DNA of 64,000 bases from Dysgonomonas sp. 25 (lineage in GTDB: Bacteria > Bacteroidota > Bacteroidia > Bacteroidales > Dysgonomonadaceae): NCBI RefSeq assembly GCF_010501075.1, contig NZ_QVMN01000009.1, positions 1 to 64,000 of the forward strand, given 5' to 3'. The notes beneath the pieces are model-generated. The model searched no databases, was not told the DNA's origin, and worked only from the letters and a program-made list of their open reading frames with translations. A program made the translations under genes and the position numbers. Shown here piece by piece: positions 2,171 through 53,828 of this stretch (position 1 is the first letter of the stretch; every line of letters starts with the position of its first letter).

Positions 2171-2293
2171 AAAACGGGCTTTCTTGAAAAGCAAGTTAAG
2201 CTTCCTTTGGAAGCTTTGCCCCAAAATCTCCACACCTTGTTTCACTTCGGGTTGTATTTTACCGGCAAAAACTTGCTTTTCATAGCCCGTTTT
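2171..2293 (+). promoter_or_regulatory. Nested-stem leader element, copy A
   Basis: P1 pairs AAAACGGGCT (2171-2180) with 2284-2293. P2 pairs TGAAAAGCAAGTT (2185-2197) with 2270-2282, 13 bp perfect. An extra 8-bp hairpin occupies 2198-2216. P3 pairs 2215-2227 with 2256-2269. The loop carries ATCTCCAC and CGGGTTGTATTTT, the conserved signature of the family. The start codon of the next gene is at 2360. See the finding on the leader family. Confidence 0.75.
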
Positions 2294-2359
2294 ATAAAAA
2301 GCTTCCGATAAAGAATAACTCTGCCAAAGGCGGAGAAGTATTAATAAAAATGATAAGTT

Positions 2360-2716
2360 ATGGAAAAGCAAGAACCAAACAAATTTCTCTTCCGTCAGGA
2401 TGAAGAGCAGTTAATAATCAGCAGGACTTATTTTACAATTGCAGCAAATAGCAAGGAAGAAGCTATAAGCATATTAGAATCATTTGAGAGAGAGAATATT
2501 CATGATTGCTATGATGAACGTATTCATATTGAAAATTCTGAATTAGAAATGGGTACTATTATTTCTTTGACTCCCGGAGAAACAATAAATAGAGCAACAC
2601 TTAATATCTATGATGCCGATAAGGAATTTCCGATTATCAGTAATCTAAATAAACCGATAAGTATAACAACTGAAAATGTAGGTTATGAAAATCGCAGAAC
2701 AGGAAGATATAAATAA
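2360..2716 (+). CDS. Hypothetical ICE protein
   Basis: A 118-aa, soluble, acidic protein without a recognised domain. It is the first gene after leader element A and overlaps the next gene by 32 bp, so the two are probably translationally coupled. The sequence has no signal peptide or membrane segment. The position next to the integrase suggests an accessory ICE gene; its function is unknown. Confidence 0.65.
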   Translation: MEKQEPNKFLFRQDEEQLIISRTYFTIAANSKEEAISILESFERENIHDCYDERIHIENSELEMGTIISLTPGETINRATLNIYDADKEFPIISNLNKPISITTENVGYENRRTGRYK

Positions 2717-3158
2717 ATCATACAAAAAGGTCGGTGAGACCTATTTTAAAAAAGAAACCGATGAAAAGATTGCCGATTTGCTCAATGAACTGATTGATTC
2801 CGGCCAAAGAGTGCGGATTTTTTATGGTGACCGCCGAACCGGACGAGATTTCTGCAAGAGATATGATACCATCGGCTACATAAGACGAACTACAGGAGAG
2901 GTGCCACAAGCTATCCTTCTGAAAGATAAGAGAGGTTTTGAAGGTGTTCCAATAGCAGAGCAGAATATTGTAAAGATTACGATAAGGAAAAAAACTGTCT
3001 ATCAGCATCCCCACTATCATATCCGTTTAAAGATTAAGGAAAGAGCCGGTAAATTCAGTTTATACAAATATGATGACAAAGAGCCCCTTTTTGAATCTGA
3101 ATCCAGATATGAAGTAGGTCGTGAAGAGCAGATATATATTGGCAATCGTGAGAAATAA
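2685..3158 (+). CDS. Hypothetical ICE protein
   Basis: A 157-aa basic protein with charged motifs (RIFYGDRRTGRDF, IRLKIKERAGKF) and no recognised family. Its ATG lies inside the end of the preceding gene, which supports a two-gene operon behind leader element A. The conserved-looking RTGRD segment and lack of export signals suggest a cytoplasmic, possibly nucleic-acid-related role, but this is speculation. Confidence 0.65.
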   Translation: MKIAEQEDINKSYKKVGETYFKKETDEKIADLLNELIDSGQRVRIFYGDRRTGRDFCKRYDTIGYIRRTTGEVPQAILLKDKRGFEGVPIAEQNIVKITIRKKTVYQHPHYHIRLKIKERAGKFSLYKYDDKEPLFESESRYEVGREEQIYIGNREK

Positions 3159-3175
3159 TATAAAATAATTTCAGG

Positions 3176-3295
3176 ATGGAAAAATTTAACTTACAATTCA
3201 CTCGAAAGGAACAGAGCCACCTTTATGATACACTATTTTATATTTTATTATTTCAAATTTATGGTAATAAAGGGAGTTCCTTAGCTCTCAAATAG
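3176..3295 (+). CDS. Possible 39-aa peptide, perhaps a truncated gene
   Basis: An ATG 17 bp after the preceding stop opens a 39-codon frame (MEKFNLQFTRKEQSHLYDTL...) that stops just before a terminator. The spacing fits a third operon gene, but the protein is short and looks like the beginning of something longer that has been lost. No homolog is recognised. Confidence 0.3.
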   Translation: MEKFNLQFTRKEQSHLYDTLFYILLFQIYGNKGSSLALK

Positions 3296-3302
3296 ATAAG
3301 AC

Positions 3303-3339
3303 AAAAAAGAGGTATAATCAATTATTATATCTCTTTTTT
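3303..3339 (+). terminator. Rho-independent terminator
   Basis: A 16-bp stem AAAAAAGAGGTATAAT (3303-3318) with 3324-3339 (one wobble pair) ends in a run of T. It closes the small operon that begins at 2360. Confidence 0.8.
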
Positions 3340-3427
3340 GGTAGTCTTTAATAGGTTCCTTTCACTTTCTCTAATTGTTAGATTGTTGCGGTTGTACGTG
3401 TTTTTGTTTTCTGTGCCGTGAAGTTTT

Positions 3428-3791: not shown

Positions 3792-3916
3792 GATAAGAAG
3801 GCTTATGATTTTTTTAATAAAGAAGTAGATTAATGTCTAAAAGAGAATATGTGTAATGCTATACCTTTAATGCTGTTACAAAGATATAATACAATAATTT
3901 ATATACAAATAAAACA

Positions 3917-7106: not shown

Positions 7107-9572
7107 TTATTTTTGAGAATACTTAAATATTTTAGATACACTATATCCGGTATCATCATAGAGGGTAATTTCGACTTCCTGTTGAAGTTGGTAATTTGTT
7201 GCTGCCCCAATCATATGGAATAAATTGATTCTATTGTCTTTGTTGTAAATATCCCTGCGTATTATTTGAACCTTTGTATTCTCGGGATATATTCCGCCAG
7301 GATACCCTATATGACCTGTACCCTTTATCATTCTCCATTTTAAATAATACAACCCATCATATTGCTTATTATCAAGGCGATTCAGGTTAATCAGCAATAC
7401 ATGATATGCTACCTGTGCAAAGTACTTGTCGTATTCTACATTTTTGAATTCAAAGCCACCCGTAAGCCCTCTTTTATCTTCATTAAAGCTAACAGAAGAA
7501 TATACTTTCCTGTTATCTTCATCAATAATTGAAAAATCTAATTGATGACATAAGCTGTTATCAGCTGTATAGAAAAGGCTTACTTTGTCATCGGTAATTA
7601 AATATTGGTTGTCTGGCTGCATGAAGGTATTTCCATAAAATAACCTTCCCTGCCCATACTGGCTACTTTGATTATACCTGATATAATATCTTCCTGAATA
7701 AATTTTACTTCTTTCTATTTGTAACTGGAAGTTTACCGTTTCATTCAAGGTCAGATTCGATTGGGGTACAGAAGTTTTGACAATGCACAAATGGTCATCA
7801 ATTCCTTTTTTGTCCTCATTAAAAAACACTTGTAGTTTTTTCAGATGCCCGATCTCGTCATAAATTTTGAAATTTAGCTGATGGTAATTTATGGTTACTG
7901 CCGTATACAATAAGTTTATGATACTTGAGGTAATTTCTACAGGTTGCCCTGGCTGGATAATATTTCCGTTATATTTAATTTTTCCCAGCCCATTCCCGTC
8001 ATATTGATAATAGCGGATAAAATATTTTCCATTGTATACACCGCTTCTGATAAGTTTGAAATCTATTTCATTGGTTTCATTTTCTTTTATCGTTATCTTG
8101 GGATTTGAAACAGAAATAGAAAAATCCTTGTCATCTGCATCTTTTTTATCTTCATTCAATATTACCTGAAAATGCTTCTGTTGTCCCAGTTCATCATATA
8201 CGATAAAGTCCATCTGATGGTAATTGGGCGTAGAAGCGGTATAGTACAATTGTAAATTATCGTTGTCAATCTCAAGGGGTTTACCCGCTTGAAGATAATT
8301 ACCATTGTATTTCAGTTTTCCTAATCCATTGCCGTCAGCTTGTGCATATTTCAGAAAATATTTACCGGAGTATACTTTGCTTGGGGTTAGCTTTAAATTA
8401 ATTCCGATTGTCTCGTCCTTATTAATTACCGTTTTGTCAGGAGTGATTGCCGCCGAAAAAAGATTGTCGTCAATCCCTTTTTTATCCTCATTGAAAATTA
8501 TTGGTATATCTACCGAATGATTCAACTCGTCTTTGAGGGTAAAATCAATCTGGTGATAATTTTCAGAGATTGCTTTATAGTTCAATTTAATATTTGTAGA
8601 AATAAGTTCGACAGGTACGTCCTGTGCTAAGATTGTGTTATTATAGGAAATTTCCCCTTTACCACTACCTGCTTTTTGCTTATATGATAGATAGTATCTT
8701 CCACTATAAAGAGGGCTTGGCTGGATGATAATCCTGAAATCACAACTTTCACCACTATGTATAATATCTTTGCTTTGCTCTTTGATCAGCGAAAACACCT
8801 TATCATCTTCTCCTTTTTTATCCTTGTTAAATACAATCTCTTTTTTTAATTCCCTATCTTGCTGTTCATCAAAAAAGGTAAAATTCAATTGGTGGTAATT
8901 AGTGGTGTTAGCTGAATATTTCAAACATATCGTGTCTTCTATAACCTGCATAGGCTTATTTTGTTGAAGATATTCATCAAAATATTGTAGTATTCCCAGC
9001 CCTTGGTTCTCTAGTTGATTATACTTGAAATAATATTTACCTAAATAGACTTTACTGGGTTTTAGTACGAATTTTACTTCACGGGTTTCGTCTATCTTTA
9101 TAGAATCCTTATAAGGAAGCAGAATGACTTCAAATTCTTTATCATCCGTGCCTTTTTTGCTCTTGTTAAATATTATCGAGAAATCCACTTGATTACCGAA
9201 AGAATTGCTTACCGATAAATTCAGTTGATGGTAATTCTCCGATATGGGCGTATAATACAACGTAATATTATCGCCGGTCAAAGCATAGTTTGTGGATTGC
9301 TTAAGAGTTGCATTATTGAGTACAAGTTTGCCTAAGCCGTCTCCTGAATCCGTATTCTGTAAATAAGAAATAAAATATTTCCCGTCATATCCTTCCGGTC
9401 GTTTAATTTTGAACGAAAATGAGGCTGTTTCGCCAGAATTAATATTATCATTATATGTCGATTCAATAATGGAGAAAAGCGTATTGTCTTCCAATGAATG
9501 CTTACTGTCACTACAAGAAAGAAATCCTAATAGGAAGATTATTAGTGTAATATATGTCATTATTTTATTCAT
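7107..9572 (-). CDS. Large lipoprotein of seven TraQ-like domains
   Basis: An 821-aa lipoprotein (MNKIMTYITLIIFLLGFLSC, lipobox LSC). After the signal, the whole protein is about seven units of about 110 residues. Each has a GETxxxxFKL-like strand, YxGKYxxxYxQ, GxGxLxYNG, LxYTA, NYHQLxF and a closing FNEDKKGxDD linker. This is the layout of TraQ (DUF3872). It sits 18 bp from a four-domain paralog and 22 bp from traQ, so the three form a tandem family. The linkers are nearly identical, which suggests recent internal duplication. A role at the cell surface in mating contact is inferred, not known. Confidence 0.8.
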   Translation of the reverse strand: MNKIMTYITLIIFLLGFLSCSDSKHSLEDNTLFSIIESTYNDNINSGETASFSFKIKRPEGYDGKYFISYLQNTDSGDGLGKLVLNNATLKQSTNYALTGDNITLYYTPISENYHQLNLSVSNSFGNQVDFSIIFNKSKKGTDDKEFEVILLPYKDSIKIDETREVKFVLKPSKVYLGKYYFKYNQLENQGLGILQYFDEYLQQNKPMQVIEDTICLKYSANTTNYHQLNFTFFDEQQDRELKKEIVFNKDKKGEDDKVFSLIKEQSKDIIHSGESCDFRIIIQPSPLYSGRYYLSYKQKAGSGKGEISYNNTILAQDVPVELISTNIKLNYKAISENYHQIDFTLKDELNHSVDIPIIFNEDKKGIDDNLFSAAITPDKTVINKDETIGINLKLTPSKVYSGKYFLKYAQADGNGLGKLKYNGNYLQAGKPLEIDNDNLQLYYTASTPNYHQMDFIVYDELGQQKHFQVILNEDKKDADDKDFSISVSNPKITIKENETNEIDFKLIRSGVYNGKYFIRYYQYDGNGLGKIKYNGNIIQPGQPVEITSSIINLLYTAVTINYHQLNFKIYDEIGHLKKLQVFFNEDKKGIDDHLCIVKTSVPQSNLTLNETVNFQLQIERSKIYSGRYYIRYNQSSQYGQGRLFYGNTFMQPDNQYLITDDKVSLFYTADNSLCHQLDFSIIDEDNRKVYSSVSFNEDKRGLTGGFEFKNVEYDKYFAQVAYHVLLINLNRLDNKQYDGLYYLKWRMIKGTGHIGYPGGIYPENTKVQIIRRDIYNKDNRINLFHMIGAATNYQLQQEVEITLYDDTGYSVSKIFKYSQK

Positions 9573-9590
9573 GTTAGTTTTAATTTTAGG

Positions 9591-11036
9591 TTAGTTCTTT
9601 AGAGAATCGTTAAATGTTAGAATCATGTCTTGCTTACATCCTGTATCATCATATATACTAAGAAGGATTTGATGATAAATTTTTTCCGGAATATTTGTTG
9701 CTCGGAAAAATAACTGAATTTGGAAGCCTCCTTTTGTATACCTTATTTCTACTTTGGTATCTTGTGGTTGGCTTGCCTCTACGGGATTAGCCATCATACC
9801 ATCACCTTTTAGAAGTTTATATGAGAAATAATATTTTCCAGAATATGTTTGGTTATTCCATCTGTCAAGATCTAATAAGATCAGACAGGATGTGCCTGGA
9901 TTGACAGCTTTTGAGGGCGAATTGTCAATTATATCGAACCCGTCCATCCTATCTTTTTTGTCCTTGTTGATATATATCGGACATATTACTTCTCTACCGG
10001 TCTCATCAATAACAACAAATTCAAGTAAATGACATAGTTTATTCGTTGCGGTATATGTGAGTGTCAGATTTCCATTAGTTATCAAGGATATGCTTTCTTG
10101 CTCGAATTCAGTACCTCCAAGTTTTAATACTCCTGTACCATACTGGGATTGTTTATACTTTATGTAATAGTTTCCATCGTATAACCTGCTTCTATCTACA
10201 TTTAATGTAATAGTTGCTGTTTCACCTTTATCCAGTATGCTTTTATCTGTATATCCTTTTATTACAGGCAAATAGTCATCGATTCCCTTTTTTTCTTCAT
10301 TGAAAACTGCATATGAATCGAGTTCAATACCCTGTTCATCAAAAAAGGTAAAATCGAGCCTATGATAATTCAAGGTAATAGCAGTATATAATAGCTGTAT
10401 GGAATCGTTTTTAATCTCTATAGGGTATCCCGGTATCATTAAGCTTCCATTGTATCTGAGTATACCGGAGCCGTTTCCATTATATTGATTATATCTGATA
10501 TAATATTTACCCTCATATATTTTACTTCTTTTGAGATGGTATTTTATTTCGGCTGATTCATTCTCGGCGATAAGCAATTGATTAGGTAGTTTTTCTATAC
10601 TGAATAGTTTATCGTCAATTCCCTTTTTATCGTCATTGAAAACCACATCTATTGTTTCCTGTACTCCGTTTCCATCTATAACAGAGAGTGTAAGACGATG
10701 ATAATTTTCACTTACGGCACTATAGTATACGGTTACCTGATCCTGTTTGATTTCGTAGGTAGTTGCCTTATTTAGCGTTATATTGTTGTAGACAAGCTTA
10801 CCGACACCAGCATCGCTATCTTGATTATATAACAGATAAAATTTGTCTTTATAATTTTTCGGGCGATTTATCTGAAATGTAACAGCAACAGTTTCGCCTG
10901 CTGCAATCGAAGCTTTAACCGGAGATTGGGTTATCGTGTAAGCACCGTAATAATCATCGGGCAAATCCTTATCTGTGCTACAAGAGATAGTTATTAACAG
11001 AAAAATCGCGAAAAAGTATATCATTCTATTTTTCAT
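9591..11036 (-). CDS. Lipoprotein of four TraQ-like domains
   Basis: A 481-aa lipoprotein (MKNRMIYFFAIFLLITISC, lipobox ISC) of four TraQ-like units. Its first unit resembles unit 1 of the seven-domain neighbour. Units 2-4 resemble its units 5, 6 and 7 (for example YYIRYNQYNGNG, LCHLLEF, FEQESISLITNG). It therefore looks like the same protein without three internal units. It is transcribed between traO and the larger paralog. Export to the periplasm or outer membrane is likely; the function is not known. Confidence 0.8.
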   Translation of the reverse strand: MKNRMIYFFAIFLLITISCSTDKDLPDDYYGAYTITQSPVKASIAAGETVAVTFQINRPKNYKDKFYLLYNQDSDAGVGKLVYNNITLNKATTYEIKQDQVTVYYSAVSENYHRLTLSVIDGNGVQETIDVVFNDDKKGIDDKLFSIEKLPNQLLIAENESAEIKYHLKRSKIYEGKYYIRYNQYNGNGSGILRYNGSLMIPGYPIEIKNDSIQLLYTAITLNYHRLDFTFFDEQGIELDSYAVFNEEKKGIDDYLPVIKGYTDKSILDKGETATITLNVDRSRLYDGNYYIKYKQSQYGTGVLKLGGTEFEQESISLITNGNLTLTYTATNKLCHLLEFVVIDETGREVICPIYINKDKKDRMDGFDIIDNSPSKAVNPGTSCLILLDLDRWNNQTYSGKYYFSYKLLKGDGMMANPVEASQPQDTKVEIRYTKGGFQIQLFFRATNIPEKIYHQILLSIYDDTGCKQDMILTFNDSLKN

Positions 11037-23263: not shown

Positions 23264-23303
23264 AATTATTAATTTTTAGAGTTAAACATATTTTTATTTA
23301 TAT

Positions 23304-23663
23304 CCAGTTATCCGATTATCCAATTATCCAGTTATCCAGTTATCCGATTATCCAATTATCCAGTTATCCAGTTATCCGATTATCCGATTATCCGATTATC
23401 CAATTATCCAGTTATCCAGTTATCCAGTTATCCGATTATCCGATTATCCGATTATCCGATTATCCAATTATCCAGTTATCCGATTATCCGATTATCCGAT
23501 TATCCGATTATCCAATTATCCAGTTATCCAGTTATCCGATTATCCGATTATCCAATTATCCAGTTATCCAGTTATCCGATTATCCGATTATCCAGTTATC
23601 CGATTATCCAGTTATCCAGTTATCCAGTTATCCGATTATCCAGTTATCCAACTATCCAATTAT
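23304..23663. repeat. Array of 45 tandem 8-bp repeats (CCRRTTAT)
   Basis: Forty-five consecutive units of CCRRTTAT fill 360 bp without a change of phase, and a degenerate 46th follows. Three variants occur: CCAGTTAT, CCGATTAT and CCAATTAT (one unit reads CCAACTAT). Every CCAATTAT but the last is preceded by CCGATTAT and followed by CCAGTTAT, so the array has a higher-order pattern. It is non-coding, between the ParA operon and the mobilisation genes. Repeated binding sites for a partition or transfer protein are the simplest reading. Confidence 0.97.
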
Positions 23664-23720
23664 CCGATATTTGGATGCGAATATCTTGTATTTTACTAGC
23701 CTTCTTATGATAGTGGATAT

Positions 23721-23940: not shown

Positions 23941-24058
23941 CCTGCCCTTGCAGGTAGCAAGTTGTATTTTGAGGCACCCGAAATAAATTCGGGCACTCAA
24001 AATAAACTTGCCCAACCTACCGGTTGGGGTGATGATTTTCTCCAAAGTCGAAAATCAT
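23941..24058 (+). other. Cluster of four hairpins, oriT or leader candidate
   Basis: H1 is CCTGC/GCAGG (23941-23954). H2 has 16 paired bases: GCAAGTT and TATTTTGAG at 23957-23973 with 23996-24011, and an inner 6-bp hairpin CCCGAA/TTCGGG. H3 is CCCAACC/GGTTGGG (24011-24028). H4 is ATGATTTTC/GAAAATCAT (24032-24058). The cluster ends 31 bp before MobA. Consecutive hairpins next to the accessory and relaxase genes are typical of origins of transfer, but a nick site cannot be named from the sequence. A translated frame across it (23839-24060) looks incidental. Confidence 0.55.
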
Positions 24059-24089
24059 AGGGTGGATATAAAAACAACAAGAGATATCT

Positions 24090-24509
24090 ATGAAAAATAA
24101 TAAAACTAAAAGCGGAAGAAAGCCAAGTGATGATCCTGCTATCTATCGATATGTTGTTAGATTGAACTCTATTGAGAATGAAAAATTTATGTCTTTATAT
24201 CTGAAATCCGGCAAAAAAAGAAAAGCTGATTTTGTAAAAACAATGCTTTTGGAAAAAGAAATAACGGTTATAACTTTTAATAAATCAATATTTGATTATT
24301 ATACCCGGCTGACCGATTTGCATCATCAATATCGAAAAATAGGAATTAATTATAATCAGGTTGTCAAACAAATCAATTCTAATGCAACGGAAAAAAGAAC
24401 AAAAGCATTGTTACTTCAACTGGAGAAGATGACGTTTAAACTCGTTGTTTTAAGCAAACAAATATTCGAATTAACACAAGAAATGAATGAAAAATGGTTG
24501 CAAAAATAA
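24090..24509 (+). CDS. Mobilisation accessory protein MobA-like (RHH)
   Basis: A 139-aa basic protein beginning MKNNKTKSGRKPSDDPAIYR, with a strand-helix-helix start (YRYVVRLNSIENEKFMSLYL) typical of ribbon-helix-helix relaxosome proteins of Bacteroides elements. A C-terminal coiled helix follows. It overlaps the relaxase gene by 16 bp, so the pair is coupled. It probably binds oriT and recruits the relaxase. Confidence 0.85.
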   Translation: MKNNKTKSGRKPSDDPAIYRYVVRLNSIENEKFMSLYLKSGKKRKADFVKTMLLEKEITVITFNKSIFDYYTRLTDLHHQYRKIGINYNQVVKQINSNATEKRTKALLLQLEKMTFKLVVLSKQIFELTQEMNEKWLQK

Positions 24510-25777: not shown

Positions 25778-25778
25778 A

Positions 25779-25808
25779 CGGACTTATATCGCCAACCCCG
25801 GACTTATA
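25779..25808 (+). promoter_or_regulatory. GACTTATA direct-repeat operator, copy 3
   Basis: GGACTTATA occurs at 25780 and 25800, exactly 20 bp apart, with the inner block CGCCAACCC. It starts 2 bp after the relaxase stop and ends 75 bp before the coupling-protein start. A weak -7 box (TTTTTTTG, 25843-25850) lies 35 bp beyond it. Confidence 0.6.
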
Positions 25809-25882
25809 TACATACCTTTTACTAGTATATCCTACAGTCATCTTTTTTTGCAACGTAATTATTAATCGAAAAACAATAAATT

Positions 25883-31300: not shown

Positions 31301-31943
31301 CCTGTTGAACAATAACGGCATTACCAATTTTAAATTTTTTAAACGTATACCCTGTTATTTTTTCAAATAAGGCTTCACAATCTGCAAAATAAGTTTCCCA
31401 TGTATCTGTATTGAAATTAAATGTATTTATTTGATTTAAAACATCTGTAATATGTGCAATACAGGGCATGTCAAGATAGTTGACGGCATTTGGTTCTAAA
31501 ATTTTCCTTAAAAACCAGGGTACTGCATTTTCACCCGGTGCCAATAATACCCCTTTTTCAGTCAATTTTGCAGGTATCCAAAATGGAAAAAAATCATTCT
31601 TGTTAGTACTTTTGCCTCTTTCTATTTCTTTGGACATTAGAAAAGGAGATAGAAAAATGTCTATATCCGGATATAAATTTTCGTCAGTATTATCAGCTTT
31701 TTCTTTTTTCTTTTGAGTCTTTTCATAAAAATCTTTGTAAATGACTTGCAGATAATCAGTTGTAAGTACATTTATATCGTTGACAATACAGCCGTTTGAA
31801 TATTCTTTGGGTTGTATATCATATACATCGCCATCTGTCAGACTGGCTGCATAATAATCGATCCATTTACGGGATAGGTCTGTTTTTGCTTCTTTTTCTG
31901 TCAGCATGTTTAGAGTAAAGGTTTCTGTTATAAAAACATACAA
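28332..31943 (-). CDS. SF1 helicase-phospholipase D fusion (Mokosh type II-like defence)
   Basis: A 1203-aa single protein. The SF1 helicase core has Walker A GPPGTGKTTLLQSII near residue 308, a coiled-coil insertion (about 470-640), Walker B DILIVDEAGQVTPE near residue 730, and the late motif NVALTRAKEHFIVIG. The C-terminus is a phospholipase D nuclease domain with HNKALAIDEDILIEGSFNW (HxK-D motif, near residue 1141). Mokosh type II anti-phage systems are single proteins with this helicase-PLD order. The gene is alone, opposite in direction to its neighbours, and therefore looks like inserted cargo. An alternative is an RNA-processing helicase of the UPF1/DNA2 type. Confidence 0.8.
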   Translation of the reverse strand: MYVFITETFTLNMLTEKEAKTDLSRKWIDYYAASLTDGDVYDIQPKEYSNGCIVNDINVLTTDYLQVIYKDFYEKTQKKKEKADNTDENLYPDIDIFLSPFLMSKEIERGKSTNKNDFFPFWIPAKLTEKGVLLAPGENAVPWFLRKILEPNAVNYLDMPCIAHITDVLNQINTFNFNTDTWETYFADCEALFEKITGYTFKKFKIGNAVIVQQVCLIPAKTKIKANSIQEVYTYLKSTKRIPGLLHLILNGQDVDQNDLPPEDVLFTTKGHYGQYNNKFSLSYSQRQSLLAFVKDKTECKSSVSAVNGPPGTGKTTLLQSIIANEVVNAVLVGKDAPLIAATSANNQAITNILDSFGNTKNLHRWLPGISSLGTYLVPASEDKQEAASKKGYQTLTSGIKGLEGYYFNSLENLDVPIEDLERFYVDNFKKANKITLPYSVSEVVDTLRCEIKDLTEEIDYILNTADFVKKAEIKYLPLSQMENLQNEISELKQELDERTAKEKEFFVFKKEFDTFFRENRLSIIKKLFSSKKQAYANKVKLFLSTARYSELKELSTQEEAEIILLKIIEKIHNSIDTIKKPLQEKKNIYQKLSEIKIEYDKINELTDSLWTDFLKTIKSAEDLDRYKSGIRSVSYIEKINIILDLTLRYSCFISALHYWEGRWLILRQESDLKNGRGKDSRKDVFRRISYLTPLFVSTLHTLPTFCSYRKKEDEWLNKPILEMFDILIVDEAGQVTPEIGIASMGFAKRAVIVGDIHQIEPIWNIDYPRVDKGNLIEAGLLRNQTFEELSDRGMLCTCGSLMHLSRNSSRYRVNRDMGGTILTEHRRCVDKLVAFSNEYVYKGLLKPLTGDIEYNIFKDGNEKLLVRPLSYINVRGHSMTGSGSTYNIEEAEAIAKWINKYEKYILNFYREKEKKKELSLKDCIAIVTPFSEQKREIYRAFRRYNIDPDITVGTVHALQGAEIPIVIFSPAYGINHEGKPLFFDNGYNMLNVALTRAKEHFIVIGNMKLFNPLAVNKPSGGLGKYLFEQEANELPSAYLLEDVNTESSQRVDTLEKHQKCLVRAFEKANRRIVIVSPFISAHALMADDLLTQIKKCVSRNVEVIIYTDNNLDKVNGKLKDSSKKGRQLLLEAGAILKILNGIHNKALAIDEDILIEGSFNWLSAVRDKNNPHFRLEVSQIILKEEAKQQIVQLLKELDRNSQ

Positions 31944-32091
31944 TAGTTAAGCAATATTTATCATCTGATTAACTGTAATTTGGTCTGTCCGAAATCAAAC
32001 ACGAATATAATAAATTTTTAACATAATTTGGTCGTGGTAGGATTGAATCAGCTACTTCTCAATTAAAATCCGGAAGTCCCCTGCGCTATTA

Positions 32092-32249
32092 TCCCTTTTG
32101 CAAATTTATATTTGTGTCGGTGCCGGACAAATTCAGGCCCTTGCCCTTGGCGGGTTTATCAAAAAATCTCCACCCTCGTCTCAAGCTTCGGGTTGTATTT
32201 TTTGCTAAAAATTTGTCATTCCCGTCACTGCATTACATAGCAAAAGGGA
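32092..32249 (+). promoter_or_regulatory. Nested-stem leader element, copy B (no gene directly after)
   Basis: P1 is TCCCTTTTGC (32092-32101) with GCAAAAGGGA (32240-32249), 10 bp perfect. P2 is GACAAATT (32126-32133) with 32210-32217. P3 pairs 32155-32167 with 32197-32209. The loop holds ATCTCCACCCT and CGGGTTGTAT. No start codon of a usable frame follows before copy C. The rest of the gap 31944-32676 between the copies is AT-rich and has no gene I can support. Confidence 0.7.
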
Positions 32250-32478
32250 CATAGCATGCGAGGCCACTTCCGACGCATATAAATAAGAGGGCGGGAATGT
32301 AGTCGTTACCGATAGCTTTTTAGGGGAAGGGGACAAAAGCTGCTCCGCTCTTCCTCTGCATATAGTTATCTTACATTAATCAATTAATTTATATCCTATC
32401 ATACTTCTCCTTTATTATTGGCTTTAAATCGATAGAAGAGGAAAAGAGAAAGCAACATAACATTGACTAACTTTTGTC

Positions 32479-32605
32479 GGCAAAGGTATTGCGTGGATTC
32501 TTTAACAGACAAGTTCCGAGATAACTCTTTGGAGAGAAAATCTCCACCCTACGGGTTGTATTTTCCCACCAAAACTTGCCTGTTATAATCACGCCCTTTA
32601 TTGCC
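32479..32605 (+). promoter_or_regulatory. Nested-stem leader element, copy C
   Basis: P1 is GGCAAAGG and GCGTG (32479-32495) with CACGC and TTGCC (32590-32605). P2 is AACAGACAAGTT (32504-32515) with 32573-32584, one mismatch. P3 joins 32528-32541 with 32560-32573. The loop is a very tight ACCC-tac-GGGT. The PRTRC operon starts at 32677. Confidence 0.72.
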
Positions 32606-32676
32606 GTAAAAATTAGTCAATGAATATTGCCCCTAAAGGGACATATTAGTGTTTAATAACTTTAAATTAAGAAATT

Positions 32677-42783: not shown

Positions 42784-42815
42784 AAGGAGATATACAAAAT
42801 GAGGTGTATCTCCTT
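42784..42815 (+). terminator. Rho-independent terminator after topB
   Basis: A 12-bp stem AAGGAGATATAC (42784-42795) with 42804-42815 (one wobble pair) is followed by CTTTTATTT. It separates topB from leader copy D and the methylase-helicase gene. Confidence 0.8.
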
Positions 42816-42841
42816 CTTTTATTTCACCCGGCAAAGCTACA

Positions 42842-42953
42842 GGCGTTTACAACGATTATCACAAGGTCAAGCTTCATTTTCCGAAAAATCTCCACCCTCG
42901 CCTTCACATCGGGTTGTATTTTCCGAAAAAACCTTGTGAAATCCGGTAACGCC
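42842..42953 (+). promoter_or_regulatory. Nested-stem leader element, copy D
   Basis: P1 is GGCGTTTAC (42842-42850) with GTAACGCC (42946-42953). P2 is CACAAGGT (42860-42867) with 42931-42938. P3 is TTTTCCGAAAAAT (42877-42889) with 42918-42930, one mismatch. The loop has ATCTCCACCC and CGGGTTGTAT. The methylase-helicase start codon is 36 bp downstream. Confidence 0.75.
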
Positions 42954-42988
42954 CGTTTGGTATGCCTATGAAATAAAAGGACTATGCT

Positions 42989-45900
42989 ATGGGATATAAC
43001 AAAAAGAAACATTTGCAGGATAATATACTTGCAATAAAAGTATTATGTGAGTTACGGGCAACAAAGTTAGAGCCTACCGAAGAACAGCTCTCCACTTTGG
43101 AAAAATATTCAGGTTTCGGGGGCTTGAATTGTATATTGAAACCTTGCGAAAAGCCGGAAGATAAGCAAACGTGGACGAAAAGCGAGCAGTATCTGTTCGA
43201 TGATACAGTAGAACTATACCGTCAAATCCATAGATATTCCACTGATGAAGAGGAATATAAAAACAATGTGAGCAGCTTGAAGAGTTCAATCCTATCGGCA
43301 TTCTATACACCGCCGGAAATAACAAAGGTAATAGCTAAAGTATTTGATATATGCGGGCTGCAAGTCAGCCGGTTTCTCGACCCGTGTTGTGGAACCGGGG
43401 TTTTTTCCAGGGCTTTCGAGGAATACGCCAAAGAGTATATATGCTTTGAAAAGGATTTGATAACAGCAAGAATCGCGACATATCTGAATCCATATGCTTG
43501 TATCTATTCCGAGGGTTATGAAACAATAAAGCCGCATTTTAATAATTACTTCGACATAGTGGCATCCAATATCCCTTTCGGTAATTACAAAGTCTATGAT
43601 CCCCTGTTTAGTAGGGATGAGACAAAGCAAAAGTCATGTAATAAGATACATAACTATTTCTTTCTTAAAGCTACAGATAGCGTTCGTGAAGGCGGTATTA
43701 TTGCATTCATTACTTCACAGGGGGTAATGAACTCGCAGGAAAATAAACCTATCCGTGAGTGGCTGATGAATCGTTATAATTTGATATCAGCCATCCGCCT
43801 GCCCAATAACTTGTTTATCGATACAGAAGTCGGAAGCGATTTGATAATCCTGCAAAAAAATACAGCAAAGACTAAGCTCGGTAACAGAGAAATTGCTTTC
43901 CTCGATACACGCACATTAAGTAACGGCTGTACGATAAATAATTACTACAAAGGTTTCAGCCGTGTTGTACATACAAAGCTTATAGTCGATACAGACGGAT
44001 ATGGAAAACCCGGATTCAACTTTTATTACGAAGACAGTATCGAGAATCTTGCCGAAGATTTATTTTTTAAACTACAGAATGATTGCCTTGCTTTTATTGA
44101 TACAGATCTTTATAATAATAATTTACATGCATCAGTTCCGGTGGAAGAAATGGAAGAAGCAGAGGACGATGATACAGATAATGCTGTTGAGATAAACCTC
44201 TATGACCTTTTCGGTATTTCGGAAGAAGACCGAAGTCAAATCAAAGTAAAACAAAAAAACAGATCTGTCGATCTGTGTGTAGAAGAATCCGACATCTCGA
44301 TAACTACTATGGAAGATCCCCTGAAAACGATCCGGACAAGTAAAAATCCTTGTATCTATAAAGGAATGATGGAGGAATTTTATGACAAAGGAACCTTGAT
44401 TCAATATAAGGGACAAACCGGAATCCTTAGTATTCAAACCGAGATCAGGAAAGGGGAAGAAATAAAGACCAATATGTTCAATCCCATTGAGGTCACTCAT
44501 GAACAGTCTTTACGTATAAAGGATTATATCCTTCTTCGTGATGCTTATTACAAACTGTTTAATTACGAATATGAACAAAAATATGAAAGTCCCCATCTAC
44601 GCAAGGTATTAAACACACAATATGAAGAATTTGTAAGCAAGCGGGGTAATCTGAATAGTAAGGAGAATTACCGGCTGATCACTCTTGATGCACTGGGGCT
44701 GGACGTCCTGGCTCTTGAGTCTTTTGAGAACGGACATAAGAAACTCGCGGATATTTTTACAGAACCCGTATCGTTTCGACGGGATAATGAAATAAAAGCT
44801 CTAAGGGCAGACGAAGCATTAGCATCTTCGTTAAACCTGTATGGTTATCCGCATTTTCAACATATGATATCTGTTTCGGAAAAAACGCAGGAAGAGTTAT
44901 TAAGTGAACTGAAAGGTGTCTTGTATTACAATCCTCTTCTATTCCGATATGAGCTATCCACTCATTTAATATCGGGAAATGTATTAGTGAAGTCCGAAGC
45001 AATAGATGAATATATCAATGAAAATCCCGATGCACCGGATATAGAAGAAAGCAGGGAGTCATTACAGGTATTGAAAGACGCTATTCCCGAAGCTATCCCT
45101 TTTGCCGATTTGGATTTTAACTTCGGGGAGCGGTGGATACCTGAAAAATATTATAATGATTTCTGCTCCGGATTGTTGGCCACGAAAATACAAATAAACT
45201 ATTTCGTCGATCTGGATAATTTCAATATTATCTCCGATAACCGGGATACCATTGAAGTTACCGAAAAATATGCAGTCACACCGGTAGACAGCGATAAATT
45301 GGACGGCCTGAAATTACTGTCACATGCCTTGTTGAATACAATTCCCAAAATAACTAAAGGAACAGGCCAGTCCGATATTAATGGTAAGGAGATACGTGTC
45401 GCCGATACCGAAGCCATCCAGCAGGCTAATACCAAGATCGATGAAATACGTGCTTGCTTTGTCGATTGGTTACTCGACTTACCGGTTAATAAAAAGGAAG
45501 AATTAGCTGCGCTATATAACCGTAAGTTTAACTCCCGTGTTATTCCTAAATACGATGGAAAGTTTCAGACATTTCCCGGTTTGCAGTTGGAGTCATTGAA
45601 AATACCCAAACCATATGACAGCCAATATGATACAGTCTGGATGCTCAAATCGAATATGGGAGGAATCGTAGATCACGAGGTGGGAAGCGGTAAAACGCTG
45701 ACTATCTGTATGGCTGCCCATGAGATGAAACGTTTAAAAATGGTTGATAAGCCGCTTATAATCGGTAAGAAAGGAAACATTTTTGAGATAGCCAAGACCT
45801 ATGCAACCGTTTATCCCAATGACAGGATTCTATATCCGTCGGAAAAAGATTTTGAGAAGAAAAACCGGAAACAGTTATTTACCAAAATCAAGAACAATAA

Positions 45901-48163
45901 TTGGGATGTCATCATTATGACACACGACCAGTTCTTTAAGATCCCGCAATCGTTGGATATGCAATTTCAAATTCTGCAAAAAGAATTGGATTCCGTAGAA
46001 GAGAATCTGAAGGTCGCCGAAAGACTTTCCGGAAAAAATGCATCTACGGCTATGTTGAAAGGTCTGCAAAAAAGGCAAGAAAATCTGAAAGCAGCCTTGA
46101 GCCTGCTATTTGAAAAGATGGAGGCACGTCGTGATGAAGTAGTCGATTTTAAGACAATGGGTATAGACCATATCTTTATCGATGAGAGCCATGTCTTTAA
46201 GAATCTTCGTTTTGATACCCGCTATAGGAATGTAGCCGGATTGGGTGACCCTAAAGGCAGCCAACGTGCGTTAAATCTGCTCTATGCCATTCGGACAATA
46301 CAGGATAAGTTTGACCGAGATTTATGTACAACGTTCTTAAGTGGAACCACCATCAGTAATTCACTTGTAGAACTTTACCTGATATTCAAATACCTGCGTC
46401 CAAGAGCGATGGAGGCGCAAGGTATCCGTACTTTCGATGCCTGGGCAGCTGTATATGCTAAGAAGACCTCCGATTATGAATTTACGGTAACCGGAGAAAT
46501 CAAATCCAAAGAACGTTTCCGCTTTTTTAAGAATGTACCTGAACTTGCCAAGTTTTATAATGAAATCACCGATTACCGCAGGGCAGAAGATGTGAATATT
46601 GTCCGCCCAAAGAATAATATTATTCTCCATGCCGTAAAGCAAACACCCGAGCAAGCCCTATTTCAGCAGGATCTGATTGAGTTTGCCAAGACAGGTGACG
46701 GAGAATTAATCGGACGACCGGGAATGGATTATTCCAAGGCCCGTTCCGGAAAAATGCTTGTCGTTACCGATCTGGCACGTAAGGCTGCCATTGATATGCG
46801 GCTTATCGATCCTGAAAAATATAAAGACTATAGAGGTAGTAAAATACCGGAAGCCGCGAAAAAAATCACTGAATACTATTATAAGTATGACGAGTATAAG
46901 GGAACCCAATTCGTATTCTCGGATATCGGCACATATAAACCTGATAAATGGAATGTGTACAGTGAACTCAAGAAGATACTGGTAGAAGAATACCACCTGC
47001 CGGCCAATGAAATCCGTTTTATTCAGGAAGCAGTCACTACAAGACAGCGGGAGAAAATGATTGCAGATTTTCGCATCGGTAAGATACGGGTGTTGATAGG
47101 TCATACGGAGAGTTTAGGTACAGGAGTCGATGCTCCTCACAAATGTGTTGCCATACATAATATAAGCATGCCATGGACACCCAAAGACCTGGATCAGCGA
47201 GGAGGTCGAGGAGCGCGGAAAGGTAATGAAATAGCTCGTTTATATGCGAATAATGTGGTCGATAACTTTATGTATGCGGCAGAAGGCAGTCTGGATACCT
47301 ATATGTTTAATCTTTTACAGAATAAGCAAACATTTATTACACAGCTTAAGACCAACTCATTGGGTACACGTATCATTGATGAAGGAGCAATGGATTCGGA
47401 TGGAAATATGAACTATTCCGAATTTGTTGCTATCCTGTCAGGAAATAATGATTTACTGGAAAAAGCTAAGTTAGAAAGAAAGGTAATGGCATTGGAAAGT
47501 GAGCATCGGAGCTATAATAAGCAACTTGATATGACAGCTTCAAGGTTGAATTACATTACGAGAGAGCTAAACAGAGATAAAGAGCGTTTGGTTGGGATTA
47601 AGGAAGACTGGCGGATTATTGAAGAGAAGTTACCTATGAATGATGAAGGTATCCGTCCTAATCCGATCAGATTGAATAACTTCAATTATAATGATGATTT
47701 GCAAGCAATTGGAGAACGACTTATTGAAATAAACAAATATAAAAATACGCATGGATATTACGAGACTATCGGTTCATTGCTCCATTTCGAAATATTGGTC
47801 AAGACTGAAAAGTTGGATAATTATTCATTCAACCGCTTCTTTATTGAGGGGGCATGTAAATACTCTTACAACAGCGGACATTTGGCCGATACTCCCGGAT
47901 TGGCTGCATCCAACTTTATTCGGGCACTTGGACGTATACCGCGGCTGATAGAAAAATACGAGACTGATAACAGGGAGAAAGAAGTAGATATTGCAAAAAT
48001 GCAAGAGATCATAGATACTCCATGGCGCAAAGAATCTCAGTTGAAGGATATGAAAATTCAATTAGCCGCTTTGGAACGAAAAATAAAAAATGATTTGGGG
48101 GAAATAGGTAATTCTGAAACAATTAGCAGTAAAATCGAAGAAGAAATCATTGAAGTTGTTTAA
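42989..48163 (+). CDS. Large N6 methylase-SF2 helicase fusion
   Basis: A 1724-aa ICE protein. The N-terminal YSGFGGLN motif and methyltransferase domain have FLDPCCGTGVFSRAF near residue 130 and the catalytic ASNIPFGNY near 193. Then a long middle region, and a helicase with Walker A EVGSGKTLTICMAAHE near residue 896, DESHVFKNL (Walker B-like) near 1064, and a late RGGRGARKGNE motif. The C-terminus is coiled coil. Such proteins accompany TopB in Bacteroides elements. It may methylate and unwind incoming DNA and so guard it from restriction; this is inference. It is the gene directly behind leader copy D. Confidence 0.9.
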   Translation: MGYNKKKHLQDNILAIKVLCELRATKLEPTEEQLSTLEKYSGFGGLNCILKPCEKPEDKQTWTKSEQYLFDDTVELYRQIHRYSTDEEEYKNNVSSLKSSILSAFYTPPEITKVIAKVFDICGLQVSRFLDPCCGTGVFSRAFEEYAKEYICFEKDLITARIATYLNPYACIYSEGYETIKPHFNNYFDIVASNIPFGNYKVYDPLFSRDETKQKSCNKIHNYFFLKATDSVREGGIIAFITSQGVMNSQENKPIREWLMNRYNLISAIRLPNNLFIDTEVGSDLIILQKNTAKTKLGNREIAFLDTRTLSNGCTINNYYKGFSRVVHTKLIVDTDGYGKPGFNFYYEDSIENLAEDLFFKLQNDCLAFIDTDLYNNNLHASVPVEEMEEAEDDDTDNAVEINLYDLFGISEEDRSQIKVKQKNRSVDLCVEESDISITTMEDPLKTIRTSKNPCIYKGMMEEFYDKGTLIQYKGQTGILSIQTEIRKGEEIKTNMFNPIEVTHEQSLRIKDYILLRDAYYKLFNYEYEQKYESPHLRKVLNTQYEEFVSKRGNLNSKENYRLITLDALGLDVLALESFENGHKKLADIFTEPVSFRRDNEIKALRADEALASSLNLYGYPHFQHMISVSEKTQEELLSELKGVLYYNPLLFRYELSTHLISGNVLVKSEAIDEYINENPDAPDIEESRESLQVLKDAIPEAIPFADLDFNFGERWIPEKYYNDFCSGLLATKIQINYFVDLDNFNIISDNRDTIEVTEKYAVTPVDSDKLDGLKLLSHALLNTIPKITKGTGQSDINGKEIRVADTEAIQQANTKIDEIRACFVDWLLDLPVNKKEELAALYNRKFNSRVIPKYDGKFQTFPGLQLESLKIPKPYDSQYDTVWMLKSNMGGIVDHEVGSGKTLTICMAAHEMKRLKMVDKPLIIGKKGNIFEIAKTYATVYPNDRILYPSEKDFEKKNRKQLFTKIKNNNWDVIIMTHDQFFKIPQSLDMQFQILQKELDSVEENLKVAERLSGKNASTAMLKGLQKRQENLKAALSLLFEKMEARRDEVVDFKTMGIDHIFIDESHVFKNLRFDTRYRNVAGLGDPKGSQRALNLLYAIRTIQDKFDRDLCTTFLSGTTISNSLVELYLIFKYLRPRAMEAQGIRTFDAWAAVYAKKTSDYEFTVTGEIKSKERFRFFKNVPELAKFYNEITDYRRAEDVNIVRPKNNIILHAVKQTPEQALFQQDLIEFAKTGDGELIGRPGMDYSKARSGKMLVVTDLARKAAIDMRLIDPEKYKDYRGSKIPEAAKKITEYYYKYDEYKGTQFVFSDIGTYKPDKWNVYSELKKILVEEYHLPANEIRFIQEAVTTRQREKMIADFRIGKIRVLIGHTESLGTGVDAPHKCVAIHNISMPWTPKDLDQRGGRGARKGNEIARLYANNVVDNFMYAAEGSLDTYMFNLLQNKQTFITQLKTNSLGTRIIDEGAMDSDGNMNYSEFVAILSGNNDLLEKAKLERKVMALESEHRSYNKQLDMTASRLNYITRELNRDKERLVGIKEDWRIIEEKLPMNDEGIRPNPIRLNNFNYNDDLQAIGERLIEINKYKNTHGYYETIGSLLHFEILVKTEKLDNYSFNRFFIEGACKYSYNSGHLADTPGLAASNFIRALGRIPRLIEKYETDNREKEVDIAKMQEIIDTPWRKESQLKDMKIQLAALERKIKNDLGEIGNSETISSKIEEEIIEVV

Positions 48164-48190
48164 TATCCGGTTATTTCCCCGGCAAAGATA

Positions 48191-48310
48191 TGTAGTGTCT
48201 TTTCGTGATTGCAAGGTACGCCTGACGGACATTTAAGAAGAAATCTCCACCCATCGTTGTCACATCGGGTTGTATTTCTTCTTAAAACCTTGCATCCACA
48301 GGACACTACA
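48191..48310 (+). promoter_or_regulatory. Nested-stem leader element, copy E
   Basis: P1 is TGTAGTGTC (48191-48199) with 48302-48310, 9 bp perfect. P2 is TGCAAGGT (48210-48217) with 48287-48294. P3 is TTTAAGAAGAAAT (48232-48244) with 48274-48286, 13 bp perfect. The loop has ATCTCCACCC and CGGGTTGTAT. The next gene begins at 48377. This copy is the cleanest example. Confidence 0.8.
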
Positions 48311-48376
48311 CGTGTGTAGCCTGTAAATAACGGGATACTATGTTGGTGTCCTTAGTAATTAATTAATCTAAAAGAA

Positions 48377-50943: not shown

Positions 50944-50955
50944 AAGGTAATGACT

Positions 50956-51378: not shown

Positions 51379-51406
51379 CAGGGCAATTAAGAAATTAAAT
51401 TCAATA

Positions 51407-51439: not shown

Positions 51440-51453
51440 CATCGAGGGGCATT

Positions 51454-51954: not shown

Positions 51955-51976
51955 TATTAACTATAAAAAGAGTATT

Positions 51977-52516
51977 ATGAAAATTGAATTAAGAAATGTA
52001 AGCTACAATGAGAGGTTATCGGAAGATAGCCATTGTTTTTCTGCGGATTTATTTGCAGACGGTAAAAAAATAGCATCCTGTTCTGATGGCGGACATGGAG
52101 GAATGACCAGGATATCACCCTATAAAGGGTGTGAAGAAGAGCTGCGTCAAATAGAAGAATACGCTAAATCATTGCCTCCTGTTATAGATCAACATTTTAA
52201 GTTAGAAATGGATTTAGAACTTCTGATCGGACAGCTGATGAATGATTACCTGTTTGAAAATAAAGTTCTAAAGAAATACCAAAATAGATGTGTTGTTTTG
52301 GGCTCGGATAAGACTAATCCCATGCTGCGATATTGGTATTTTTCAGGTACAAAAAAGAAGATCCCGATTACAGAAATGCTGCAAAATGATGAGGGTAAAA
52401 AGCTTTTGGCAGAAGTTATAAAAGAAGCGTTGTCAAATAATCAAACAATCTATAACACGAATATACCCGAGGAGGTGATAAAATCAATAGAGTTGGAATT
52501 GAAGCAATGTGAATAA
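51977..52516 (+). CDS. Hypothetical ICE/phage-type protein
   Basis: A 179-aa protein. The start MKIELRNVSYNERLSEDSHC at 51977 is chosen; the longer upstream frame overlaps the preceding gene by 44 bp without support. The motif DGGHGGMTRISPYKG looks like a conserved core. Proteins of this kind also occur in phages. Function unknown. Confidence 0.65.
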   Translation: MKIELRNVSYNERLSEDSHCFSADLFADGKKIASCSDGGHGGMTRISPYKGCEEELRQIEEYAKSLPPVIDQHFKLEMDLELLIGQLMNDYLFENKVLKKYQNRCVVLGSDKTNPMLRYWYFSGTKKKIPITEMLQNDEGKKLLAEVIKEALSNNQTIYNTNIPEEVIKSIELELKQCE

Positions 52517-52527
52517 ATCTTTCAGTT

Positions 52528-53283
52528 GTGATAGCTTCAAAACGCTTCTGTGCCAGCATTTCATTCGGAAAAGATAGCTTATGCATGTTATTTATGCTGA
52601 TTGAGAAAGGCTATCCATTGGATGAGGTGGTATTTTATAATACGGGGATGGATTTTGAAGCTATCTATTCCACCCGGGACAGGTTAATACCTTTTTTTAA
52701 AGAAAGAGGAATCAAGTTTACAGAGCTACATCCAGATAAACCTTTTCTGTGGCTAATGCTGGAGAAGCCAATAAGAAGCAGGGATACAGGCCTTATTCAT
52801 AAATATGGATATTCATGGTGTGGAGGTCCATGCCGATGGGGAACTGGAGAGAAACTCAGAGCATTAAAGAAGCATATCGGTCATAATTGGGATTATGTTG
52901 GTATTGCAGCCGATGAAACCCATCGTTTCGGGAAAGAGACGCGAGCCAATCGTATACTTCCGCTTGTCGAGTGGGGAATATCCGAAGCCGAGGCTCTCCA
53001 ATATTGTTATAATAAGGGATTTTTCTGGGAGGAAAACGGAATCCGGTTGTACGATATATTGGATAGAGTGAGTTGTTGGTGCTGTGGGAACAAAAATCTC
53101 AAAGAGTTATTTAATATCTATCGGTATCTGCCAACCTATTGGCAGCAGCTGAAAGAACTACAATCAAAAACTAACCGTCCATATCGTCGGCAATCTGGAA
53201 AATCTCTTTTTGATTTGGAAGAAGAATTTAGAAAATCAATAAAAGAAGATTCAATGATAAAGAAATCTGCTATTTTTGTCTGA
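52528..53283 (+). CDS. PAPS-reductase/ATP-pyrophosphatase-like protein
   Basis: A 251-aa protein with a GTG start. The SFGKDS motif (residues 12-17) is the ATP-pyrophosphatase P-loop of the PAPS reductase/DndC superfamily. WCGGPCRWGTG and CWCCGNKN add cysteines that may bind a metal. In host metabolism such enzymes reduce sulphate; on mobile elements similar proteins are linked to DNA or RNA modification. No other sulphur-transfer or dnd gene is nearby, so the substrate is unknown. Confidence 0.8.
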   Translation: MIASKRFCASISFGKDSLCMLFMLIEKGYPLDEVVFYNTGMDFEAIYSTRDRLIPFFKERGIKFTELHPDKPFLWLMLEKPIRSRDTGLIHKYGYSWCGGPCRWGTGEKLRALKKHIGHNWDYVGIAADETHRFGKETRANRILPLVEWGISEAEALQYCYNKGFFWEENGIRLYDILDRVSCWCCGNKNLKELFNIYRYLPTYWQQLKELQSKTNRPYRRQSGKSLFDLEEEFRKSIKEDSMIKKSAIFV

Positions 53284-53299
53284 AAATATATAAGTACAT

Positions 53300-53572
53300 A
53301 TGACAAAAGCTGATATTATTAGTAAAATCTCCGGGAATACAGGAATAGATAAAAATGCAGTGACAAAAATTGTAGAAACACTTATGTTGACAATTAAAGA
53401 TTCTCTTGCTCGCAATAAGAATGTGTACCTTAGAGGTTTCGGAAGCTTTGTCGTCAAGCATAGAGCTGAAAAGCCTGCGCGTAATATTAGTAAAAATACG
53501 ACTATTATTATCCCTGCCCACGATATCCCTGCTTTCAAAGCATCGAAAGCTTTTACTATAGACAAAAAATAA
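53300..53572 (+). CDS. HU/IHF-family DNA-binding protein
   Basis: A 90-aa protein with MTKADIISKISGNTGIDKNAV, the GFGSFVVKHRAEKPARNISK arm region and FKASKAF near the end, typical of HU/IHF. It bends DNA and may serve the relaxosome or recombination. It lies 16 bp after the PAPS-reductase-like gene. Confidence 0.92.
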   Translation: MTKADIISKISGNTGIDKNAVTKIVETLMLTIKDSLARNKNVYLRGFGSFVVKHRAEKPARNISKNTTIIIPAHDIPAFKASKAFTIDKK

Positions 53573-53719
53573 CAGGGCAAATCATCTTTTTTTATAAAAT
53601 GTATCGCTTAATCCACCGGTGATACATACTCTATTCACACAAACATTTCATGGATAACTTATAAAATACTTTATAAGAAAGATTCATAATCCCGTCATTT
53701 TATTTCATTTAGCGAAACT

Positions 53720-53828
53720 ATGATGTGTCCTTGACGGATGCAACAAGGTCAGGCATTGTTTTGGATAAAATCTCCACCCTAAAGGGTTGTATTTTACCCA
53801 AAAACCTTGTTTTTCCGCGACACATCAT
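53720..53828 (+). promoter_or_regulatory. Nested-stem leader element, copy F
   Basis: P1 is ATGATGTGTC (53720-53729) with 53819-53828, 10 bp perfect. P2 is AACAAGGT (53742-53749) with 53804-53811. P3 is TTTTGGATAAAAT (53759-53771) with 53791-53803, one mismatch. The loop is a small ACCC/GGGT hairpin with ATCTCC and TTGTAT flanks. The next gene starts at 53863. Confidence 0.8.

Follow-up and report, generated by a model that had tools for sequence, protein, structure and literature searches.

Introduction

At the complementary-strand origin of M13 and at the single-strand origins of plasmids, a folded single strand recruits RNA polymerase and makes a primer. The closest described counterparts of the element reported here are the Frpo/ssi sites of the enterobacterial plasmids F and ColIb-P9, which, in the sections of the reports drawn on here, are hairpins with promoter boxes that stand before leading-region genes and occur several times per element (PMC9849209, PMC11541004). 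Here we describe a family of hairpins found in a 64,000-nucleotide stretch of DNA (the window, positions 1-64,000 of contig NZ_QVMN01000009.1) from Dysgonomonas sp. 25, which holds the left part of an integrative and conjugative element (ICE). From the predicted fold and the boxes that it carries, we consider it probable that each copy is a promoter working on single-stranded DNA (ssDNA), a Bacteroidota counterpart of Frpo that would drive expression immediately after DNA entry.

The hairpin family appears to be new. In the sections of PMC11541004 drawn on here, known Frpo were sought by BLAST and new ones through TTGACA/TATAAT boxes, and the string 'Bacteroid' is absent from the main text of that report. 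In the open-access literature searched we found no report of a single-strand promoter, leading region or Frpo in Bacteroidota (a report elsewhere is possible), and nothing on gene expression by incoming Bacteroidales elements before their DNA becomes double-stranded. The RteR RNA of CTnDOT is, in the part of PMC7366714 that deals with it, a 90-nt trans-encoded RNA acting on expression of the tra operon.

Results

A hairpin family with covarying stems

A first-pass annotation of the window had proposed six copies (A to F) of one nested-stem architecture in which pairing is kept while the sequence changes. All six stretches hold the element, and a covariance model built from 19 aligned sequences recovered each of them at full length (E <= 4.3e-14), a value that is partly circular because the six copies belong to the 19-sequence training set. 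The core pattern of the element gave five exact matches in the window versus none in 100 shuffles, the core of copy A being a variant. RNA folding near the bounds first proposed returned z-scores of -4.0 to -7.6 for copies A, C, D, E and F, and for copy B a z-score of -0.94 when trimmed and -3.1 at full length.

Read along the coding strand, the 5′ half of the element consists of a box (GCAAANNTA) followed by the 5′ arms of stems P1, P2 (CAAG or CAAA in the window copies) and P3, while the centre and 3′ half consist of the core AAATCTCCACCC, a variable loop, GGGTTGTATTT, and the 3′ arms of P3, P2 (CTTG or TTTG) and P1. Several copies have a small side hairpin between P2 and P3; an outer stem (P0) extends past the box in copies D and F as well as in many relatives. 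Both of these features go beyond the first-pass annotation, as do a seventh copy and the minus-strand promoter boxes. The inner core is asymmetric and better conserved than the promoter boxes; its position would suit the binding of an upstream activator or of a primosome.

The maintenance of pairing was borne out by two approaches. In a MAFFT alignment of the 19 copies the covariation score was 0.316, compared with 0.101 for shuffled alignments and at most 0.108 for slid structures; paired cells made up 90.9% (78.2% when shuffled), and 14 pairs changed on both sides. Within the covarying pairs, 68 cells were changed on both sides versus 10 on one side. For counts over the whole family, copies were dereplicated into 91 clusters at 80% identity, of which the 59 with both core halves were used. 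Without any alignment between copies, the best partner among the 59 3′ arms was the copy's own in 55 of 59 cases, and in 34 of 45 when only P1 and P0 were considered. The sequences of P1 and P0 vary widely across copies while their pairing is kept.

Promoter boxes on the minus strand

For the primary sigma factor of Bacteroidota (sigma-ABfr), the relevant part of PMC7366714 gives a consensus of TAnnTTTG at -7 and TTTG near -33, with variable spacing. The box GCAAANNTA is the reverse complement of this -7 box. The motif CAAANNTA, the minus-strand -7 box, was present in the zone of the 5′ arm in 37 of the 59 dereplicated copies (mean 0.71 and maximum 3 in 300 shuffles) and in none of the 59 mirrored 3′ arms; five of the six window copies have it exactly. 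A plus-strand box in the same 5′ zone was near chance (2/59 versus 0.68), and no tested zone showed a clear plus-strand excess. Judged by how often the box occurs in the same loci, 37 or more would arise with a probability of about 1e-50 if the copies were independent, and they are not fully so. In 30 of 38 cases a CAAG or CAAA, read as TTG on the minus strand, occurs 19-23 nt inward of the -7 box (mean 1.03 and maximum 4 in shuffles).

The minus strand was then folded as DNA, and predicted pairing was averaged over the 37 copies with this box. The -33 region was paired at 0.86-0.95 and the duplex outside the -7 box at 0.69-0.92 across its first 16 nt, with the TA of the -7 box at 0.41-0.49. 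Promoter melting begins at this TA. In the predicted fold it falls between two duplexes, in a region that is partly open, and the minus-strand hairpin would thus be a partly pre-opened promoter. By prediction, folding of the single strand rebuilds both boxes of the host sigma factor, the -7 box being exact in 37 of the 59 copies.

Strand linkage to the relaxase and the origin of transfer

When a PF03432 relaxase match lay at most 60 kb away, the copies shared its strand in 61 of 67 cases and were opposite to it in 6. Counted per relaxase (n = 50), 44 had copies on the same strand only, 5 on the opposite strand and 1 on both. In 49 of the 67 cases the relaxase was on the same strand and downstream, giving the order element, genes towards the origin of transfer (oriT), oriT, mob; in a further 12 it was on the same strand and upstream, five of these coming from the window ICE. 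Copies mostly stood before genes that run towards the presumed oriT, and their orientation followed that of the relaxase. The distance between element and relaxase was 4-6 kb in two elements without an apparent intervening tra operon (G112 and G123).

The mob operon of the window (24090-27889, plus strand) comprises genes for a MobC_2-like protein (24090), a MobA/VirD2-type relaxase (24494) and a coupling protein (25883), and it lies on the strand of the genes that follow the window copies. Just 5′ of it is a candidate oriT hairpin (24030-24060, no strand assigned), an inverted repeat with the loop CTCCAAAGTC. Of 12 aligned ICEs and other elements, 7 have the loop motif CTCCGAAGTC exactly and 5, among them the window ICE, differ from it by one base. 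An RP4-like nick motif (ATCCTG/TCCTGC) was dropped as a candidate, with one match in the 12 sequences. Between a ParA-like gene and the mob operon lies an array of an 8-bp unit (23301-23670; about ATCCRRTT), approximately 45 units by length.

In RP4-type systems (RP4/R64, the MOBP rule) it is the template strand of the relaxase operon that is transferred. For an element working on incoming DNA, the strand that folds must be the transferred strand; by analogy with RP4-type organization this would be the strand opposite the downstream gene. If the template of the relaxase operon is indeed the strand transferred, the arrangement matches what a promoter on incoming ssDNA would need.

Genes adjoining the element

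The first open reading frame (ORF) to the right was on the strand of the element in 69 of 88 cases, with a median distance of 91 nt for these. The first ORF to the left was on the opposite strand in only 32 of 79, which is not what an ordinary leftward promoter would predict. Among 117 right-hand ORFs scanned, matches were found to DUF6943 (8), single-stranded DNA-binding protein (SSB; 7), ArdA (7), PcfK (6), DUF932 (5), DUF6266 (4), RadC (3), the ArdC N-domain (2), N6-methylase (1) and Rep3_N (1). Integrases were the most frequent family in 75 left-hand ORFs scanned (6), and SSB, ArdA, ArdC, RadC and DUF932 were absent from the left-hand families listed (the best 25 of 61). The downstream genes (SSB, ArdA, ArdC, RadC, DUF932 and DNA methylases) are cargo of plasmid leading regions; the leading region of F itself holds SSB, DUF932, methylase and antirestriction genes, all on one strand.

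The copies of the window and their host element

The landmarks of the ICE are a tRNA at 120, an integrase at 507, tra genes on the minus strand and mob genes on the plus strand from 24090. The end of the tRNA is repeated (14 nt) at contig position 99,640, which indicates a size of about 99.5 kb. The ICE holds seven copies, all on the plus strand: the six in the window, entered as features under the minus strand that carries the promoter boxes, and one beyond it (contig 91,793-91,942) that is followed by an ArdC gene. As first noted, start codons lie close to five copies (A, C, D, E and F), 34-71 nt past the copies as then delimited.

Copy A (2153-2314) has its -7 box at 2162-2170 (GCAAATTTA on the plus strand), the -33 CAAG at 2192-2195 and the core TCTCC..GTATT from 2227; a plus-strand gene of 118 aa starts downstream at 2360. 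Copy B (32091-32253; -7 box 32100-32108, -33 CAAA 32128-32131, core from 32167) stands in tandem with copy C, 5′ of it, and has no gene of its own. Copy C (32471-32616; -7 box 32480-32488, -33 CAAG 32510-32513, core from 32541) is followed by a PRTRC operon, with PRTRC_E starting on the plus strand at 32677. This operon, which directly follows copy C and extends to 36221, includes ubiquitin-like, E2-like and ThiF (E1-like) genes. Adjoining copies B and C on the other side, a minus-strand gene (28332-31943) encodes a helicase/PLD protein that matches the Mokosh defence model MkoC (PADLOC, 956 bits).

Copy D (42812-42980; -7 box 42831-42839, -33 CAAG 42862-42865, core from 42889) has the outer stem P0, and directly 3′ of it is a plus-strand gene (42989-48163) for a 1724-aa N6 DNA methylase with SNF2-type helicase domains. 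Another Dysgonomonas copy (locus L037) also precedes a protein whose start is similar to this methylase-helicase. Copy E (48173-48331; -7 box 48182-48190, -33 CAAG 48212-48215, core from 48244) precedes a 133-aa gene that starts on the plus strand at 48377. Copy F (53694-53857), with a long P0, has an imperfect -7 box at 53712-53720 (GCGAAACTA), the -33 CAAG at 53744-53747 and the core from 53771, and is followed by a small plus-strand ORF of 72 aa at 53863. The outer bounds of copies D and F were taken from the predicted fold.

Two more diverged copies are present in the same genome (L001:10044-10197 and L002:9950-10115; 62 and 40 bits with the covariance model). Elsewhere in the ICE (7107-11036), one protein contains six stretches of the TraQ family (7107-9572), and the DNA has a periodicity of 336 nt that continues into the next gene. 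The cargo at contig 64,595-90,481 (L003, L092) we take, from the starts of its ORFs, to resemble a type VI secretion locus with a ClpV-like ATPase.

Distribution of the family

The family is widespread in Bacteroidota. The exact core pattern matched at least 80 stretches in a species collection. Among the matches listed, Flavobacterium was foremost and all but four were Bacteroidota by record title; of these four, one titled Chlorobi has the element and the other three match around the core only or weakly (at most 21 bits). In separate surveys the covariance model was positive in 22 of 392 genomes sampled across the phylum Bacteroidota, in 68 of 392 genomes of Bacteroidales, the order of the window (47 of 204 genera), and in none of 198 genomes from a different phylum, that of a record titled Desulfobacterales, which served as the negative control. 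All three surveys used the stricter filters applied to sets of more than 40 genomes. The search of Bacteroidales, which the first-pass annotation had suggested, thus yielded further copies. No Rfam family matched an element in the window or in 17 other loci scanned, and the earlier suggestion of a family like ssNA-helicase found no match there.

In CTn214, a CTnDOT-like element (PMC10865816), one copy stands before a PcfK/PcfJ operon. Another lies inside an inserted segment that has mobilization genes of its own, ahead of an abortive-infection-like gene. Within a 16-kb stretch of a Bacteroides ovatus MOBP plasmid, four copies share one strand. A blast search of plasmids with copy E returned one irrelevant 25-nt match; a search with the Flavobacterium copy returned 13 records.

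A subgroup of Flavobacteriia copies has poly-A/T-rich outer stems (L022, L053, L065, L068, L081, L011, L062, L064 and L070), and its neighbours are integrases, small genes of unassigned function or a Rep-like gene. Several of these copies may precede DUF6943 genes, the eight DUF6943 matches being an overall count that is not tied to single copies. A phage origin of the poly-A/T-flanked copies was considered and dropped, three neighbouring proteins having no PHROG match.

Discussion

A probable promoter on incoming single-stranded DNA

The fold, the covariation, the promoter boxes, the strand linkage and the gene content are computed from the DNA. The transferred strand, the binding of RNA polymerase, the timing and the off-switch we infer as parts of the following model. 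The strand opposite the downstream gene would enter the recipient and fold into a long hairpin, whose 3′ arm would be the non-template strand with the -33 TTG and the -7 TAnnTTTG and whose 5′ arm would be the template. P0 would supply the duplex downstream of the start site, and the -7 box would be partly open at its TA. The RNA polymerase of the host, with its primary sigma factor, would transcribe the incoming strand towards the downstream gene, such that SSB, anti-restriction and methylase genes would be expressed before second-strand synthesis, and conversion to double-stranded DNA would turn the promoter off. The first-pass annotation had offered ssDNA hairpins, acting as promoters or priming sites, as one of two explanations; the promoter half of that idea gains from the minus-strand -7 and -33 boxes, the strand linkage to the relaxase and the leading-region genes, and the priming half is weighed below.

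Several observations speak against this model. The inner core, the most conserved part of the element, lies outside what a promoter accounts for. An exact -7 box is missing from the zone in 22 of the 59 copies, and that of copy F deviates at one base. The box counts cover 59 of the 91 clusters, the search as made having missed one half of the core or both in the other 32. In 6 of the 67 relaxase-linked cases, copy and relaxase lie on opposite strands. A tra operon of about 20 kb lies between the copies and oriT in the window ICE, and the tra operon also lies between them in CTn214; with RP4-type polarity the tra operon would enter before the element-driven genes, so that there would be no classical leading region adjacent to oriT, and this order sits least easily with the model. 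With DNA parameters the minus-strand fold was the more stable one in 54 of 59 copies, and with RNA parameters in 55, but shuffled sequences also favoured the minus strand (45 versus 12 with DNA parameters, by a smaller margin), and because the shuffles lean the same way this difference is weak support. Finally, single stem mismatches on the plus strand numbered 113 for A.C, 38 for G.T and 265 for others, a pattern resembling G.T wobbles on the minus strand. The excess of A.C over G.T was abandoned as a proof of minus-strand folding, because shuffling the mismatched letters reproduces it (106 and 37).

The other explanation offered at first was a cis-regulatory RNA, that is, a structured leader on the coding strand (a riboregulator or an antitermination element) tying the genes of the ICE to one signal. 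The right-hand ORF lies mostly on the strand of the element at a median of 91 nt, covariation is strong and the plus strand also folds well, all of which would suit such a leader. However, TAnnTTTG was found on the plus strand upstream of none of the 59 copies (up to 78 nt, with other sigma factors or more distant promoters remaining possible), changes on both sides of a pair (68 cells) far exceed those on one side (10), and G.T mismatches are no commoner than letter composition predicts, where an RNA leader would predict enrichment (the tRNA control for G.T versus A.C was too small, with 14 distinct tRNAs and 42 pairs). No Rfam family matched at the element, either in the window or among the 17 further loci scanned, and the minus-strand boxes and the strand linkage to the relaxase would be left unaccounted for. 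We therefore regard the earlier proposal of a cis-regulatory RNA as probably wrong and a leader of this kind as improbable. The same anatomy would also serve as a priming site for second-strand synthesis, where RNA polymerase, or a primosome bound to the core, would make a primer and not an mRNA; the conserved inner core might serve to recruit a protein of the primosome, and the copy at L070 precedes what we take to be a plasmid Rep gene. The title of a 1997 paper by Masai and Arai reportedly names Frpo both as a promoter and as a source of primer. Yet a primer needs no gene, while the ICE has seven copies in series, most of them before a co-directed gene, and establishment genes recur, which argues for the production of mRNA and makes a pure priming function an unlikely account.

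Two further explanations have very little in their favour by our estimate. The minus-strand -7 and -33 pair could be read in double-stranded DNA too, as an ordinary leftward promoter whose hairpin is incidental or a regulatory cruciform, but the left-hand ORF is opposite in 32 of 79 cases versus 69 of 88 right-hand ORFs on the strand of the element, and neither the covarying arms nor P0 would be explained; we consider this highly improbable. Conjugation and recombination proteins use single-strand hairpins, and the conserved, asymmetric inner core would suit a binding site for such a protein on folded ssDNA (a secondary oriT, or an att-like or REP-like site). Against this, the P1 and P0 sequences differ while their pairing is kept, making the copies unlike a spreading sequence, and the promoter boxes and gene content are left out of account, such that we give a site of this kind hardly any credence.

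If each copy is a single-strand promoter, as we favour, a broader proposal may be considered, one that we hold tentatively and think somewhat doubtful: a single, phylum-wide Bacteroidota promoter for the first minutes after entry, common to ICEs, mobilizable elements and plasmids with backbones that are unrelated. Its invariant core would be read by a host factor that marks incoming ssDNA, and this one signal would start a zygotic programme made up of SSB, anti-restriction, methylase and anti-defence genes, with second-strand priming perhaps included. Conjugation shapes the genomes of gut Bacteroidales, and the family offers a concrete, testable account of gene expression before these elements become double-stranded. 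It marks likely early genes of CTnDOT-type and other elements; many of these are of unassigned function and are thus candidate anti-defence genes. The sequence signature makes early regions findable in Bacteroidota genomes.

Comparison with known systems

RteR of CTnDOT comes from the same class of element, and on the description in the relevant part of PMC7366714 it would differ from the present family, which is a hairpin repeated before several genes. Structured RNA families in Rfam share the covarying nested stems, the difference being that none of them matched at the element. With the M13 and plasmid single-strand origins the likeness is a polymerase acting on a folded strand, which is a prediction here, and the difference is that the present copies precede genes in series. 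The nearest likeness is to Frpo/ssi, which in the reported sections are likewise box-bearing hairpins before genes of leading-region type, with several copies per element; the cargo overlaps in SSB, anti-restriction, methylase and DUF932 genes. The element described here differs in its Bacteroidota sigma boxes, its invariant inner core, its frequent side hairpin and its Bacteroidota hosts, and the covariance model gave no match up to E 10 in the stretch holding the leading region of F (L236). By prediction, then, the element would work like Frpo while not being a member of Frpo by sequence, which suggests an origin of single-strand promoters separate from that of Frpo and tied to another sigma factor.

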